A DNA stretch of 64,000 nucleotides from Saccharothrix saharensis (GTDB taxonomy: Bacteria; Actinomycetota; Actinomycetes; Mycobacteriales; Pseudonocardiaceae). The notes beneath the pieces were generated by a model that was not told the origin of the DNA, made no database searches, and saw only the letters and a program-made list of their open reading frames with translations. The stretch lies in assembly GCF_006716745.1 (NCBI RefSeq), contig NZ_VFPP01000001.1, forward strand, positions 930,001 to 994,000, written 5' to 3'. The position numbers were made by a program, and so were the translations under genes. Shown here piece after piece: positions 1,454 through 44,281 of the stretch (the first letter of the stretch is position 1; each line of letters opens with the position of its first letter).

Positions 1454-3070
1454 ATGCCGAACACGTCGGTCTTGGCCGAACCCGCCGCCGTCAAGATCCT
1501 GATGGTGACCGACAGCACGGCGAGCTTCGACCGGGCCGACTTCGGCCTGGCCACGCTCGTGGACGTGCTGGAGGCGCCGCCCGGGCCGTGGGTCCGGTTC
1601 GAGGTGACGAAGGCGCACCGCGAGGCCAACCTGCCCGCGTTGACCGCCGACCTCCCCGCGTTCCGGTTCGACGAGCACGACCTGGCCCAGTACGACCAGA
1701 TCTGGCTGTTCGGCGTGGCCCGCGCGCCGCGGCCGCCGCTGGACCAGACCGAGTTGCGGGCGTTGGCCGAGTTCATGGACGGCGGTGGCGGCGTGTTCGC
1801 CACCGGCGACCACGAGGACCTGGGCGTGTCCCTGTGCGGCGACCTGCCGCGGGTGCGCAGCATGCGCAGGTGGCACTGGCCCGAGCCCGGCCCGAACGGC
1901 GAGCCGGTCGCGCCGTCGATCGACGGTCCCGACCGCAACGACACGCTGTCGGAGGGCCACGACCCGCTGTTCCAGCTCAACGACCAGTCCGACGACATCC
2001 CCCAGGTCATCACGCCCCGGATGTACGCCACGTCGGACTCGCCGAAGTGGGCGCACCAGGCCTACCCGCACCCGCTGCTGTGCGGTCCGCGCGGCACGAT
2101 CCGCGTGCTGCCGGACCACCCGCACGAGGGCGAGTGCTACGTGCCCGACGACCTGACGAGGTCGTTCACCTTCGACGGGTACGAGATGACCGAGTACCCG
2201 GCGGGGCTCGCGCCCGAGGTCGTGGCGTGGTCCACCATCAACGCCCGGGCCGCGGCGCTGGACCCGCGCAAGGGGCGGCTGGACGCGAGCACGTTCGGCG
2301 CGATCGGCGCCTACGACGGGCACCAGGTCGGCGTGGGCCGGGTGTCGGTGGACGCCACGTGGCACCACTTCTTCAACGTCAACCTGGTCGGCGACCCGAC
2401 CGTGCCGGAGGACCCGGTCAAGAGCGTCGGGTTCGCCGCGTCGGCGTCGGGCCGGGCCGCGTACGAGGAGATCAAGGCCTACTACCGCAACATCGCGGTG
2501 TGGCTGGCCCGGCCGGCGACCCAGGAGGCGATGTGGTGGCGCGCGGTGTGGGCGACGCGCTGGCACCACCAGGTCGCGATGGACCTGCGGCCGGCGCTGA
2601 TGGGCGCACCGGAGCGGCTGGACCTGGCCGAGCTGCTGCGCATCGGCACCGACGTGCGCCAGGTGCTGACGGCCACCGTGACCAAGGCGGACACCCTGCA
2701 GTGGGCGGGCAGGTACGGCGTGGGCGCGGTCGACGCGGGCCTGTGGGAGACCGTCCGGCCGCACCTGGACCCGTGGCGACCGCGGGCCGGTGACGAGGAG
2801 GCGGGACACCTGCCGAACCTGGTGCTGTCACTGCTGCCGGAGCTGGTGCTGGACGCGGTGCTCGGCGCGGTGGTGTACGCGGTGGCCTCGGCGTTCCCGG
2901 AGCCGACCCCGGACGCCCGCGACCGGGCGGGCGCCGTCGACTGGGCGGCCACGGTGCGCCCGCACCTGGACCGGGCGCTCGACGTGGTCGCCGAACAGGT
3001 GCAGCGGACCGACGCGCGGTTGCGGTCGCTGGGGGACACGCTCGCGACCGCCCGCCGGTCCGGCGACTGA
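1454..3070 (+). CDS. Unrecognised 538-aa protein with a GATase/ThuA-like N-terminus
   Basis: I do not recognise a full family. The first ~170 residues read like a Rossmann or glutamine-amidotransferase-like fold: KILMVTDST, then DQIWLFGVAR, then a glycine-rich turn EFMDGGGGVFATGDHED resembling ThuA-type proteins. The middle is rich in Trp and His (WAHQAYPHPLLCG, DATWHHFFNVNLVGD). The last ~120 residues are helical, with one hydrophobic stretch (LVLSLLPELVLDAVLGAVVY). There is no signal peptide. The ATG at 1454 has GAGAGGGACGACAG upstream. It lies 17 bases after the chorismatase and may act on or sense its product, but nothing in the sequence proves that. Confidence 0.7.
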   Translation: MPNTSVLAEPAAVKILMVTDSTASFDRADFGLATLVDVLEAPPGPWVRFEVTKAHREANLPALTADLPAFRFDEHDLAQYDQIWLFGVARAPRPPLDQTELRALAEFMDGGGGVFATGDHEDLGVSLCGDLPRVRSMRRWHWPEPGPNGEPVAPSIDGPDRNDTLSEGHDPLFQLNDQSDDIPQVITPRMYATSDSPKWAHQAYPHPLLCGPRGTIRVLPDHPHEGECYVPDDLTRSFTFDGYEMTEYPAGLAPEVVAWSTINARAAALDPRKGRLDASTFGAIGAYDGHQVGVGRVSVDATWHHFFNVNLVGDPTVPEDPVKSVGFAASASGRAAYEEIKAYYRNIAVWLARPATQEAMWWRAVWATRWHHQVAMDLRPALMGAPERLDLAELLRIGTDVRQVLTATVTKADTLQWAGRYGVGAVDAGLWETVRPHLDPWRPRAGDEEAGHLPNLVLSLLPELVLDAVLGAVVYAVASAFPEPTPDARDRAGAVDWAATVRPHLDRALDVVAEQVQRTDARLRSLGDTLATARRSGD

Positions 3071-37367: not shown

Positions 37368-38174
37368 TCAGGCGCGACGCTCCAGCATGATCGTGTCCCG
37401 CCACACCCCGCGGTGGACCGCGATCCGCTCCCGGACACCGACCGTGCGGAACCCGGCCGACCGGTGCAACGCGATGCTCGCCCGGTTCTCCGGGAACACG
37501 ACCGCCTGCAACGTCCACAGCCCGGCCGCGTCCGCCGCCGTGACCTGCCGGTGCAGCAACGCCTTCCCGACACCGCGCCCCCGCGACCGCGCGTCGACGT
37601 ACAGCGACGTCTCCGCGACACCGGCGTAGCACTCGCGCGGTGACACCGGAGTGGCCGCCGCCCACCCCGCGACGAGCCCGTCGACCACCGCCACCCACCG
37701 GTGGTCCGGCAACCACTTGACGTCCAGCGTCCGGCGGCTCGGCGTCCCGGTCTCGAACGTGGCGTCAGCCGTGGCGATGCCCTCGCCGTAGATGCGGCGC
37801 ACGTCGGACCAGTCGTCTTCCACCATGGCGCGCACCGCGACGTCGGCGGGCGGTTCGAGCGCGGCCGCGGGTATCGCGCCCAGCACCGCGTCGACCGACT
37901 GCGGCAGCAAGGCGCGGCCGGACGGGTCGACCGAGGCCAGGGTCGTCGTGCCGACCCGGCGGAGCTGCACGAAGCCGGCGGCGGCGAGCTTGCGCAGGTG
38001 GTGCGAGCAGGTCGGTTGGGTCACCCCGAGCGCCGCGGCCAACGCGCCGACGGCGGCCTCGCCCGCCGAGACCGCGTGCAGCAGTCGGATCCGGGTCGGG
38101 TCGGCCAGGCAGCCGAAGCGCTCGGCGTACGCGGCGGCCTGGTCGGCCGCCAGAGGTGTCGCGACAGGGCTCAT
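37368..38174 (-). CDS. ArsR-GNAT (ArsN-like) fusion protein lacking arsenic-binding cysteines
   Basis: A 268-aa fusion. Residues ~10-95 are an ArsR winged helix (CLADPTRIRLLHAVSAGEAA; TCSHHLRKLAAAGFVQLRRVG). Residues ~115-268 are a phosphinothricin/ArsN1-type acetyltransferase (RIYGEGIATADATFETGTPS; YAGVAETSLYVDARSRGRGVG; FPENRASIALHRSAGFRTVG). The paralogue at 51149 has Cys-Cys pairs between the domains; here the same place reads SVDPSGRALLPQSVDAVLGA, with none. The enzyme part should acetylate an amino group of a glutamate-mimic toxin such as arsinothricin or phosphinothricin; the sensor part has probably changed its signal. The ATG is at 38174. Confidence 0.88.
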   Translation of the reverse strand: MSPVATPLAADQAAAYAERFGCLADPTRIRLLHAVSAGEAAVGALAAALGVTQPTCSHHLRKLAAAGFVQLRRVGTTTLASVDPSGRALLPQSVDAVLGAIPAAALEPPADVAVRAMVEDDWSDVRRIYGEGIATADATFETGTPSRRTLDVKWLPDHRWVAVVDGLVAGWAAATPVSPRECYAGVAETSLYVDARSRGRGVGKALLHRQVTAADAAGLWTLQAVVFPENRASIALHRSAGFRTVGVRERIAVHRGVWRDTIMLERRA

Positions 38175-38209
38175 ACCGGGATTGTTCGATCCTCGACGTG
38201 GACCAGTCA

Positions 38210-38225
38210 ATCGAATCGGGTCGAT
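38210..38225. promoter_or_regulatory. Candidate operator of the ArsR-GNAT gene
   Basis: ATCGA-ATCGGG-TCGAT, perfect 5-bp arms, 36 bases upstream of the ArsR-GNAT start. Confidence 0.5.
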
Positions 38226-41212: not shown

Positions 41213-42136
41213 GTGCTGTACCCGGAGATCGAGCCGCACGACCACGGCATGCTCGACGTCGGCGACGGGCACCACGTGTACTGGGAGGTCTGCGGCAACC
41301 CGGACGGCAAACCGGCCGTGGTGCTGCACGGCGGGCCGGGCTCGGGCTGCACCCCCCGCGCCCGGCGGTACTTCGACCCGCGGGCGTACCGGGTGGTGCT
41401 GTTCGACCAGCGCGGCTGCGGTCGGAGCACGCCGCACGCCGGCCAACCGGTCGTGGACCTGTCCACCAACACCACGGACCACCTGGTCGGCGACCTGGAA
41501 CGGCTGCGCGGGCACCTGGGCATCGACCGGTGGCTGGTGTTCGCCGCGTCGTGGGGCTCGGTCCTCGGCCTCGTCTACGCCGAGCGGTACCCGCACCGGG
41601 TGTCGGAGATGGTGCACGCGGGCGTGGCCACCGGCCGCCGGGCCGAGACCGACCTGCTGACCACGGGGCTGGGGCCGATGTTCCCGGAGGCGCACGCCCG
41701 GTTCCGCGAACTGGTGCCCACCGGCGATCCCGCCGCGGGATACCTGGAACTGCTCCTGTCGCCCGATCCGGCCGTGCACCACCGGGCGGCGCAGGAGTGG
41801 TGCACGTGGGAGGACGCGTTGCAGCCGCTGTCCACCGGCGGGCTGCGCTTCGACCCGCCGGAACACGGGCTGGCCTTCGCCCGGCTCGTCACGCACTACT
41901 GGGCGCATGGGTCGTGGTTGCCCGAAGGGGTCGTGCTGGAGGAGGCGTGGAAGCTCGCGGGCATTCCGGGCGTGATCGTGCAAGGAACGCTCGACCTGGG
42001 CAATCTGATCGGCACGCCGTTCGAACTGGCGCACGCGTGGCCGGACGCCGAACTGGTCCTCGTCGGCGACACCGCGCACGGCGGCGGTGACGAGATGACC
42101 CGGTTGCGCCGCGCCGCTACTGACAAGTTCCGGTAA
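41213..42136 (+). CDS. Proline iminopeptidase-like alpha/beta hydrolase (S33)
   Basis: A 307-aa enzyme resembling proline iminopeptidases, which remove N-terminal proline. Oxyanion motif VVLHGGPGSGC, then VVLFDQRGCGRSTPH. The nucleophile elbow is FAASWGSVLGL (Ser ~113); the usual GGSWGS is changed to AASWGS. The acid is in VIVQGTLDLGN (Asp ~261), where family members normally have GRYD, and the His is in GDTAHGGG (~289), normally GHS. The three catalytic residues are kept but their surroundings differ, so peptidase activity should not be assumed. Confidence 0.85.
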   Translation: MLYPEIEPHDHGMLDVGDGHHVYWEVCGNPDGKPAVVLHGGPGSGCTPRARRYFDPRAYRVVLFDQRGCGRSTPHAGQPVVDLSTNTTDHLVGDLERLRGHLGIDRWLVFAASWGSVLGLVYAERYPHRVSEMVHAGVATGRRAETDLLTTGLGPMFPEAHARFRELVPTGDPAAGYLELLLSPDPAVHHRAAQEWCTWEDALQPLSTGGLRFDPPEHGLAFARLVTHYWAHGSWLPEGVVLEEAWKLAGIPGVIVQGTLDLGNLIGTPFELAHAWPDAELVLVGDTAHGGGDEMTRLRRAATDKFR

Positions 42137-42209
42137 CACCCGGAAACTCGGTGCGATGGTCTGGTGACGGTCCGATCCCGGACTGGTCGACGGCGGCGAA
42201 GGACTGGTG

Positions 42210-43019
42210 GTGGAACGGTTCACCGAGAGCGCCCGCCGGGTCTCCGTGGTGGCACTCCAGGAGGCCCGGGGGCTCGCCCACACCTCGATCGGCACCGCGC
42301 ACCTGCTGCTCGGGCTGATCGGCGAAGGTGGCGCGGCGGCGTCGGTGCTGGCGTCGGTCGGCCTGTCGCTGCCCGCGTGCCGTGCGCGGGTGCGGGAGCT
42401 GGGTGGTCCCGGCGACCCGACCCCGCCCGGCCACCCGCCGTTCACGGCCGGCGCGAAGCGGGCGCTGGCCGAGGCGGTGCGGGAGTCGTTGGCGTTGGGG
42501 CACCGGCAGGTGGTCACCGAGCACCTGCTGCTCGGCGTGCTCGCGGCCGACCGGGGCGGGGCGCTCGACGTGCTGGCCCGGTGCGGCGTCGACCCCGTCG
42601 ACCTGCGCGACCGCGCGTTCGCCGCGTTGGCCGGGATCGACCTGTCCGCGCCGCGGGCCGCACGGCTGTTCCTCAGCTACCGGCGTCCGCAGGACCTGCA
42701 CCTCGCCGGGCGCATCGCCGACCGGCTGGACGACTTCGGCCGGTCGGTGGTGTGCGACGTCGGCGAGTGCGACGTGCTGCTGGCCGTGGTCGGCCCGGAC
42801 TGGGCGCCGACGGAGCTGATGCGCGCCGAGGTGGCCCGGGCGGCGCGGCGCTCGGTGCCGGTGGTCCCGGTGCTGGTCGACGGGGCGGTGCTGCCCGTCG
42901 ACCAGCTGCCGGTGACCGGTCACGTCGCCGACCACGTCACCGTGCGGCACGAAACGTTCCGCGCGGACGTGGCGCGGTTGGCCGACGTGGTCCGCTACGC
43001 CCAGCCGGGCATCGGGTAG
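42210..43019 (+). CDS. Clp_N-TIR fusion protein
   Basis: A 269-aa protein. Residues ~1-140 are a double Clp N-domain as found at the front of ClpA/ClpC: RFTESARRVSVVALQEARGL, then HTSIGTAHLLLGLIGEGG and the second copy RQVVTEHLLLGVLAADRGG. The AAA+ ATPase part is absent. From ~152 it is a TIR domain: ARLFLSYRRPQDLHLAGRIA, FGRSVVCDV, CDVLLAVVGPDW and RRSVPVVPVLVDGAVLP. Between CDV and CDVLLAVVG only two residues remain; the ~20-residue stretch that in other TIRs carries the catalytic glutamate is missing. GTG 42210 fits the GAAGGA site best (42207 also possible). The 3' end overlaps glyA. Confidence 0.85.
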   Translation: MERFTESARRVSVVALQEARGLAHTSIGTAHLLLGLIGEGGAAASVLASVGLSLPACRARVRELGGPGDPTPPGHPPFTAGAKRALAEAVRESLALGHRQVVTEHLLLGVLAADRGGALDVLARCGVDPVDLRDRAFAALAGIDLSAPRAARLFLSYRRPQDLHLAGRIADRLDDFGRSVVCDVGECDVLLAVVGPDWAPTELMRAEVARAARRSVPVVPVLVDGAVLPVDQLPVTGHVADHVTVRHETFRADVARLADVVRYAQPGIG

Positions 43020-44251
43020 CCCGCCATCAGCTCGGCGACCTCGGCGGCGATGCGGTCCAGCGCCTGCTCGTCGTCCGCCGACCGCACGGCCCGGTCGATC
43101 CACTCCGCGAGCTGCGGCATGTGCTGCCCGGTGAGGCCGCGGGTGGTGATCGCGGCCGTGCCCAGGCGGACGCCGGACGGGTCGAACGGCTTGCGCGGGT
43201 CGAACGGGACGGTGTTGTAGTTGGCCTCCAGGCCCGCCCGGTCCATGGCCTTGGCCGCGGGCTTGCCACCGATGCCCTTGCTGGTCAGGTCCACCAGCAC
43301 GAGGTGGTTGTCGGTGCCGCCGGAGACCAGGTCGAAGCCGCGGTCGAGCAGCGCGGCGGCCAGGGCGCGGGCGTTCTGCACGACGGCGTGCGCGTAGAGG
43401 CCGAAGGACGGCTCCGACGCCTCGCCGAGTGCCACCGCGATGGCGGCCGTGGTGTGGTTGTGCGGCCCGCCCTGCAAGCCGGGGAACACCGCCTTGTCGA
43501 TCGCCTTCGCGTGCTCGGCGTCGGTGAGGATCATCGCGCCGCGCGGGCCGCGCAACGTCTTGTGCGTGGTCGTGGTGATCACCTGGGCGTGCCCGACCGG
43601 TGACGGGTGCGCGCCGCCCGCGACCAGGCCCGCGATGTGCGCGATGTCGGCCGCGAGCACCGCCCCGACCTCGTCCGCGATCTCGGCGAACGCGGGGAAG
43701 TCGATGGTGCGCGGGATGGCCGTGCCGCCGCAGAAGATCACCTTGGGGCGTTCGGCGCGGGCCAGGTCGCGGACCTCGTCCAGGTCGACCACGCCGGTCT
43801 CCTTGGACACGCCGTACTGGACGCTGCGGAACCACTTGCCGGTGGCCGAGACGCCCCAGCCGTGGGTGAGGTGGCCGCCCGCGGGCAGGGCCATGCCCAT
43901 GACCGTGTCGCCGGGGTCGAGGAACGCCAGGTAGACGGCGAGGTTGGCCGGGGAGCCGGAGTAGGGCTGGACGTTGGCGTGGTCGACGCCGAAGAGCGCC
44001 TTGGCCCGGCCGACCGCGAGCTCCTCGACCGGGTCGACGACCTGCTGGCCCTCGTAGTAGCGGCGGCCGGCGTAGCCCTCGGAGTACTTGTTGGTCAGCA
44101 CGGAGCCGGTGGCTTCGAGCACGGCGGTCGAGACGTAGTTCTCCGAGGCGATCAGGCGGACCTTCTCGAACTGGCGGCGCGCCTCGGCTTGGACCAGCCG
44201 GGCGACCTCGGGGTCGGCTCCGGTCAACGACGGGATGGCGGGTTCGTGCAC
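42995..44251 (-). CDS. glyA: Serine hydroxymethyltransferase
   Basis: A 418-aa PLP enzyme that interconverts serine and glycine while charging tetrahydrofolate. Conserved parts: LIASENYVSTAVLEATGSVL, NKYSEGYAGRRYYEGQ, NVQPYSGSPANLAVY, the PLP lysine in TTTTHKTLRGPRGAM (~231), FPGLQGGPHNH and GLEANYNTVPFD. The GTG at 44251 is preferred because GGAGG lies five bases before it; a GTG at 44263 is also open. A ZTP riboswitch precedes it, so translation or transcription rises when ZMP/ZTP signals folate shortage. SHMTs of actinobacteria often occur in two copies. Confidence 0.97.
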   Translation of the reverse strand: MHEPAIPSLTGADPEVARLVQAEARRQFEKVRLIASENYVSTAVLEATGSVLTNKYSEGYAGRRYYEGQQVVDPVEELAVGRAKALFGVDHANVQPYSGSPANLAVYLAFLDPGDTVMGMALPAGGHLTHGWGVSATGKWFRSVQYGVSKETGVVDLDEVRDLARAERPKVIFCGGTAIPRTIDFPAFAEIADEVGAVLAADIAHIAGLVAGGAHPSPVGHAQVITTTTHKTLRGPRGAMILTDAEHAKAIDKAVFPGLQGGPHNHTTAAIAVALGEASEPSFGLYAHAVVQNARALAAALLDRGFDLVSGGTDNHLVLVDLTSKGIGGKPAAKAMDRAGLEANYNTVPFDPRKPFDPSGVRLGTAAITTRGLTGQHMPQLAEWIDRAVRSADDEQALDRIAAEVAELMAGYPMPGWA

Positions 44252-44281
44252 GACGACCTCCACGCGCGCGGGGGCGCTGCC

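Follow-up and report, generated by a model that had tools for sequence, protein, structure and literature searches.

A conserved fusion of a ClpC-type receptor domain with a shortened TIR domain in Saccharothrix, possibly a pseudo-TIR scaffold

What might the substrate-receptor domain of the unfoldase ClpC do once it is separated from the ATPase ring and joined to a TIR domain? The question is raised by an open frame in a 64,000-nucleotide stretch of Saccharothrix saharensis DNA (contig NZ_VFPP01000001.1, positions 930,001 to 994,000; referred to as the window), which had been described from its letters alone as a Clp_N-TIR fusion with an internal deletion in the TIR domain. On closer analysis the fusion proved to be real, conserved and under selection against amino-acid change, at a fixed chromosomal place; its architecture, the deletion, a retained glutamate and the predicted fold are established here by computation. 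We give about an even chance to the explanation that the TIR part is a non-enzymatic scaffold (pseudo-TIR) and that the free ClpC receptor attached to it serves as a decoy or sensor. Literature searches, which reached little subscription content, returned no description of a Clp_N-TIR fusion.

The G+C content of the frame at the three codon positions (0.83/0.52/0.96) is gene-like, as in its two neighbours (0.76/0.50/0.93 and 0.72/0.49/0.98), indicating a genuine gene. An AGGA motif is located 6 nt 5' of the GTG start codon, and an alternative GTG start occurs one codon upstream at 42207. Two Clp_N repeats were recognized in the N-terminal half by Pfam (Clp_N, PF02861; two stretches, 1.1e-20, 73.9 bits against a cut-off of 20.7). 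In the PDB the best sequence matches to residues 2-147 were the N-terminal domains (NTDs) of ClpC1 and ClpC (7.6e-34). The nearest relative seen is the ClpC of the same genome, whose NTD is 48% identical to the Clp_N half. The AAA+ modules of the unfoldase are absent from the fusion, for which Pfam returned no match to such modules along the 269 residues.

The window protein itself scored 20.8 bits with Pfam TIR_2 (PF13676), under the 28-bit cut-off. Among six relatives, two passed (L023 with 31.8 and L024 with 32.7 bits), three remained below and one, L077, gave no match. When the TIR parts of the family (18 sequences supplied, 10 retained by the program's filter) were compared by hhalign with 22 ordinary TIRs, they aligned with an E-value of 3.1e-27; the C-terminal part of the homologues thus belongs with TIR domains and not with another family. 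Since L023 and L024 exceed the cut-off and the family profile aligns with ordinary TIRs, we consider the assignment firm. An AF2 model of the TIR domain alone, built on 10 sequences of which two are from viral contigs (L118 and L119), displayed TIR topology, with a beta-sheet and helices alpha-A, alpha-C and alpha-E, and matched the SARM1 TIR; a non-TIR fold was therefore not seen. A single helical turn occupies the place where alpha-B is expected. This was the model used. A full-length prediction built on 8 close sequences was of low quality, with a pLDDT of 46.8, and neither it nor its Foldseek list, in which the ClpC1 NTD came first and the SARM1 TIR was among the next, was relied on.

The internal deletion was also confirmed. 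In the window protein CDV and CDVLLAVVG stand exactly two residues (GE) apart; in ordinary TIRs from the same bacterial family the interval between strands two and three is about 19 residues longer. All 18 fusions are short before beta-C (19 gap columns in the alignment for the window protein, 13 for L023 and 17 for L077), and in 17 of them the betaC-alphaC region is shortened as well. The alignment alone is ambiguous as to which element was lost: in the hhalign and MAFFT results the gap lies ahead of DDFGRSVV, which would mean that beta-B and the BB loop are gone, but both L023 and the AF2 model speak for a retained beta-B and the loss of the BB loop and alpha-B.

The sequence-only reading had located the catalytic glutamate within the deleted segment. 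This was a misreading, because the glutamate of TIR NADases resides in alpha-C, after the CDVLLAVVG strand, where the window protein has E207; a gap before beta-C in a TIR leaves the catalytic glutamate in place. SARM1 was matched at 1.6e-18 by a profile built from 7 family TIRs and 13 ordinary ones, and the glutamate of the SARM1 motif DWVHKEI, residue 642 when counted from V564, aligns with E207. E642 is the catalytic residue of SARM1 (PMC10675840; structure entry title 'E642A'), and alpha-C carries the catalytic glutamate in every structure compared in PMC9402430. Ordinary TIRs have this glutamate in 22/22 rows and a tryptophan four residues earlier in 18/22 (counted by eye). Among the fusions the glutamate is kept in 16 of 18, with histidine in L020 and alanine in L077, while none has the tryptophan at that position (in L023 one occurs one residue earlier).

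Conservation of the active-site glutamate, which the sequence-only reading had itself named as evidence against it, raises the alternative of an active effector: after assembly its TIR would use E207 to cleave NAD+ or a related nucleotide, and Clp_N would be the trigger domain. The lower dN/dS of the TIR half (0.29) also speaks for such an activity. However, the BB loop forms part of the NAD pocket (PMC9402430, PMC7075850), and both the BB loop and alpha-B, which lie within the SARM1 pocket (PMC7075850), are missing in 18/18 fusions. The fusion TIR further departs from SARM1 and the bacterial TIR NADases in its shortened betaC-alphaC region and missing tryptophan, and two members have lost the glutamate. 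The expected loss of activity has to be argued from the absent BB loop and alpha-B, not from the glutamate. Judged from these features the fusion TIR is probably not an active enzyme, and we consider an NAD-consuming effector improbable. To this extent the earlier suggestion of a non-enzymatic TIR is retained.

The second part of that suggestion, an adaptor taking the ClpC/ClpP protease to TIR-bound targets, fared less well. The Clp_N half is ClpC-like, and NTDs of resting ClpC contact the M-domains (PMC12583610), so that a free NTD might touch ClpC. However, Clp_N is the receptor for clients, adaptors and drugs, and ClpC2 competes with ClpC for cyclomarin (PMC10030653). Being the site where adaptors bind and not the part that docks ClpP, a free copy would more naturally be a competitor of ClpC. 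We regard recruitment of a ClpP-dependent protease as quite improbable; to our knowledge, no adaptor is itself a Clp_N domain.

The known ligand sites of Clp_N were compared position by position. E32 and E106 of ClpC are crucial to phosphoarginine binding (PMC12583610); their equivalents are A30 and E104 in the window protein, and both glutamates are present in only 12 of the 18 fusions, which argues against phosphoarginine sensing, as the sequence-only reading had suggested, as a conserved property. Cyclomarin contacts F2, F80 and E89 (PMC10030653), which correspond to V, F and A in the window protein. Throughout the fusions F80 is invariant (18/18), E89 occurs in 3/18, and F2 in two of the 15 rows that reach this position, the other three rows being cut later. 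As the known sites are eroded, no specific ligand is supported, and binding of neither known ligand is supported as a conserved property.

These data bear on a further alternative, a ClpC2-like antibiotic decoy in which Clp_N sequesters ClpC-targeting peptides and the TIR merely stabilises or localises it. Mycobacterial ClpC2, one of the actinobacterial stand-alone Clp_N proteins, sequesters cyclomarin A away from ClpC1 in this manner (PMC10030653) and, like the fusion, has a receptor domain of the ClpC type but no ATPase modules; a ClpC2-like protein (L004) is encoded in the same genome; and Clp_N diverges faster than the TIR (dN/dS of 0.43 versus 0.29), as a receptor would. In contrast to ClpC2, the window protein and most other members carry different residues at F2 and E89, two of the three cyclomarin contacts, and there is no helix-turn-helix (HTH) or autoregulatory part: ClpC2 has a C-terminal Clp_N and is a DNA-binding repressor of its own gene (PMC10030653), whereas in the fusion an N-terminal Clp_N is followed by the TIR. 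We therefore hold a plain antibiotic decoy to be doubtful.

We favour, at the even chance given above, the pseudo-TIR scaffold. The N-terminal half would be a copied substrate-receptor domain of ClpC, joined to a TIR from which the BB loop and helix alpha-B have been lost. This TIR would keep its fold and, in most members, the alpha-C glutamate; it probably could not hold NAD+, would probably not form the usual BB-loop contacts and may have become a protein-interaction scaffold. Off the ATPase ring, the Clp_N half might bind part of ClpC's ligands, whether client segments, adaptors or ClpC-directed peptides, and would thereby serve as a decoy or sensor, its bound state being relayed to TIR partners. 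The absence of NADase activity, the ligands of Clp_N and the decoy or sensor role are what we infer here. Scaffolds of this kind are familiar from the TIRs of the TLR adaptors MyD88 and MAL/TIRAP, which are not enzymes and resemble the proposed fusion TIR in this respect; structures of both were among the Foldseek matches. However, TLR-adaptor TIRs keep the BB loop and use it in assembly, as in TIRAP filaments (PMC7075850), whereas the fusion has none. By analogy, precedents for a free receptor as decoy or sensor may be seen in ClpC2 and in the ClpN-vWA fusions of FtsH ternary conflict systems (PMC7159879), where Clp_N likewise occurs outside an unfoldase in a putative conflict protein and where inactive enzyme domains have been proposed as decoys. 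The ClpN-vWA proteins differ in having a vWA partner and a multi-gene operon (PMC7159879), whereas the fusion has a TIR partner and lies between a hydrolase gene and glyA.

Several observations weigh against the pseudo-TIR scaffold. No partner gene was found, and the ligand sites known from other Clp_N domains are eroded. Retention of the alpha-C glutamate exceeds what a dead enzyme would need, though it may be structural. Finally, the nine Foldseek matches with E ≤0.001 comprised six TIRs and also three GTPase-fold chains (two of 8q6q and one of LepA).

A further reading is a lineage-specific sensor, in which the free ClpC receptor would detect ClpC ligands, such as marks on damaged proteins or ClpC-killing peptides, and signal via a TIR without a BB loop. 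We consider it rather unlikely. If true, it would add a third role of the ClpC receptor to those in the unfoldase and as a decoy, and would make the TIR a minimal one that signals without the BB loop. The fusion as such would tie protein quality control to TIR-type signalling within one polypeptide and would show that selection can maintain a TIR fold from which BB loop and alpha-B are absent.

The distribution of the fusion was determined from genome samples and one scan of genome contigs. A syntenic fusion is present in 17/25 genomes of the genus. An eighteenth, divergent one (L077; genome G024, 1455-2309, minus strand) is shortened before beta-C, has alanine at the alpha-C glutamate and a full-length betaC-alphaC region, and lies in a genome that lacks the glyA orthologue; in 7/25 genomes the fusion was not found. 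In the family sample it occurred at 1e-34 in 17/390 genomes and 1/46 genera, a threshold too strict to detect a fusion whose TIR is more distant, as that of L077 is (4.1e-28). Seven of eight named matched loci were from Saccharothrix, the eighth being an Acidobacteria metagenome-assembled genome matched over the Clp_N half only. A wide distribution was rejected: the matches in 40/394 genomes of the class sample at 1e-34 are the window and 39 frames of 530-972 amino acids. Most of these matches extend beyond Clp_N, the longest reaching query residue 259. Among the widest, the four that were scanned (L097, L098, L100 and L101) were Clp_N plus AAA+ proteins of the ClpC type with no TIR among the 25 families shown, and the other 35 were taken as ClpC from frame length only. 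The 52 loci fetched in TIR searches were compared with seven Clp_N sequences; 17 were the known fusions and two the G024 fusion (L077 and L106), and no Clp_N match at 1e-4 was obtained in the remaining 33.

The frame is open in all 17 syntenic copies; a TGA was flagged inside the L025 and G024 matches, where the frames taken from those loci are open across the fusion. Convergent glyA adjoins it in 17/17 carriers, overlapping in 13 and lying within 1 kb in four. An alpha/beta-hydrolase gene, which we take to be prolyl-aminopeptidase-like and call PIP, lies directly upstream in the window and in 12/12 fetched carrier loci (L039-L045 and L091-L095), a count that leaves out four other carriers. 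In G012 and G021 (L089 and L090), PIP and glyA adjoin with no fusion match between them. G001 and G003, which have no syntenic copy, possess glyA, and PIP was not in the 4-kb stretch fetched; G002, G011, G013 and G024 have only a glyA of 50-53% identity. For 14 close orthologues (Nei-Gojobori; L023-L025 and L077 left out), the median dN/dS was 0.40 for the whole protein (91 pairs), 0.43 for Clp_N (91) and 0.29 for the TIR (90), with single pairs ranging from 0.12 to 0.79. L023 gave 0.63-0.78 against L024 and L025, while the remaining pair within L023-L025 gave 0.32 for Clp_N and 0.19 for the TIR. The restriction to one genus, the absence from seven of its genomes, the eroded ligand residues and the high L023 values would fit a decaying relic with no present role; however, the intact frames and adjoining glyA in all syntenic copies and the median of 0.40 make this very improbable.

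Table 1. Features of the fusion gene and its neighbours (window positions)
Feature	Position	Strand	Remarks
Clp_N-TIR fusion gene	42210..43019	+	open frame, 269 aa plus stop, GTG start
Clp_N repeat 1	42252..42392	+	includes A30 (42297-42299) at the site of ClpC phosphoarginine-2 (pArg2) glutamate E32
Clp_N repeat 2	42474..42614	+	includes E104 (42519-42521), equivalent of ClpC E106 (pArg1)
Shortened TIR domain	42660..42983	+	residues 151-258
Short beta-B and 7-residue junction	42744..42773	+	replaces BB loop and helix alpha-B (about 19 residues in ordinary TIRs)
Helix alpha-C	42813..42848	+	E207 (codon 42828-42830), aligned to SARM1 catalytic E642
YAQPGIG-stop tail	42996..43019	+	antisense to the 3' end of glyA
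PIP, alpha/beta-hydrolase gene	41213..42136	+	Pfam Abhydrolase_1; 73 bp 5' of the fusion start
glyA, serine hydroxymethyltransferase	42995..44263	-	convergent, overlaps the fusion 3' end

Conservation of the YAQPGIG tail is imposed by the antisense glyA and says nothing on the fusion. In L091 the same letters can be read antisense, although fusion and glyA do not overlap there.

According to Pfam, the nine neighbouring frames are metabolic, regulatory or membrane genes or are unassigned. A defence island was rejected, as PADLOC gave only generic matches on these frames (Csa3, CasR and CARF models matched an ArsR-type HTH frame, and a TAP-like model the alpha/beta-hydrolase). The fusion itself matched 0 PADLOC families at E up to 1, and among the Thoeris models in NCBIfam it reached 14.2 bits with ThcB4, which needs 220. 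A mobile origin was likewise rejected: seven plasmid records matched, none covering 80% of the query, and three phage records matched in the Clp_N half only. Six single-protein scans of viral contigs yielded two loci in one case, the query's own locus in another and none in four.

Clp_N-like proteins, 42-44% identical to the first half of the window protein, are encoded by the Mycobacterium phages Myrna (NC_011273.1, gp251) and Phabba (NC_054714.1) and might be phage decoys against host ClpC. A canonical TIR on a viral contig (L118, IMGVR_UViG_3300047160_032923) shares 41% identity with a TIR from the genus of the window. Besides L004, the same genome encodes a stand-alone Clp_N protein with a CcdA/ribbon-helix-helix-like N-terminus (L003, 7965244-7968399), and further Clp_N frames were found (L008 and L096); it seems that DNA-binding parts are a recurrent partner of free Clp_N domains. 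Elsewhere in the window (37368-38210, minus strand), an ArsR-type HTH is fused to a GNAT acetyltransferase.
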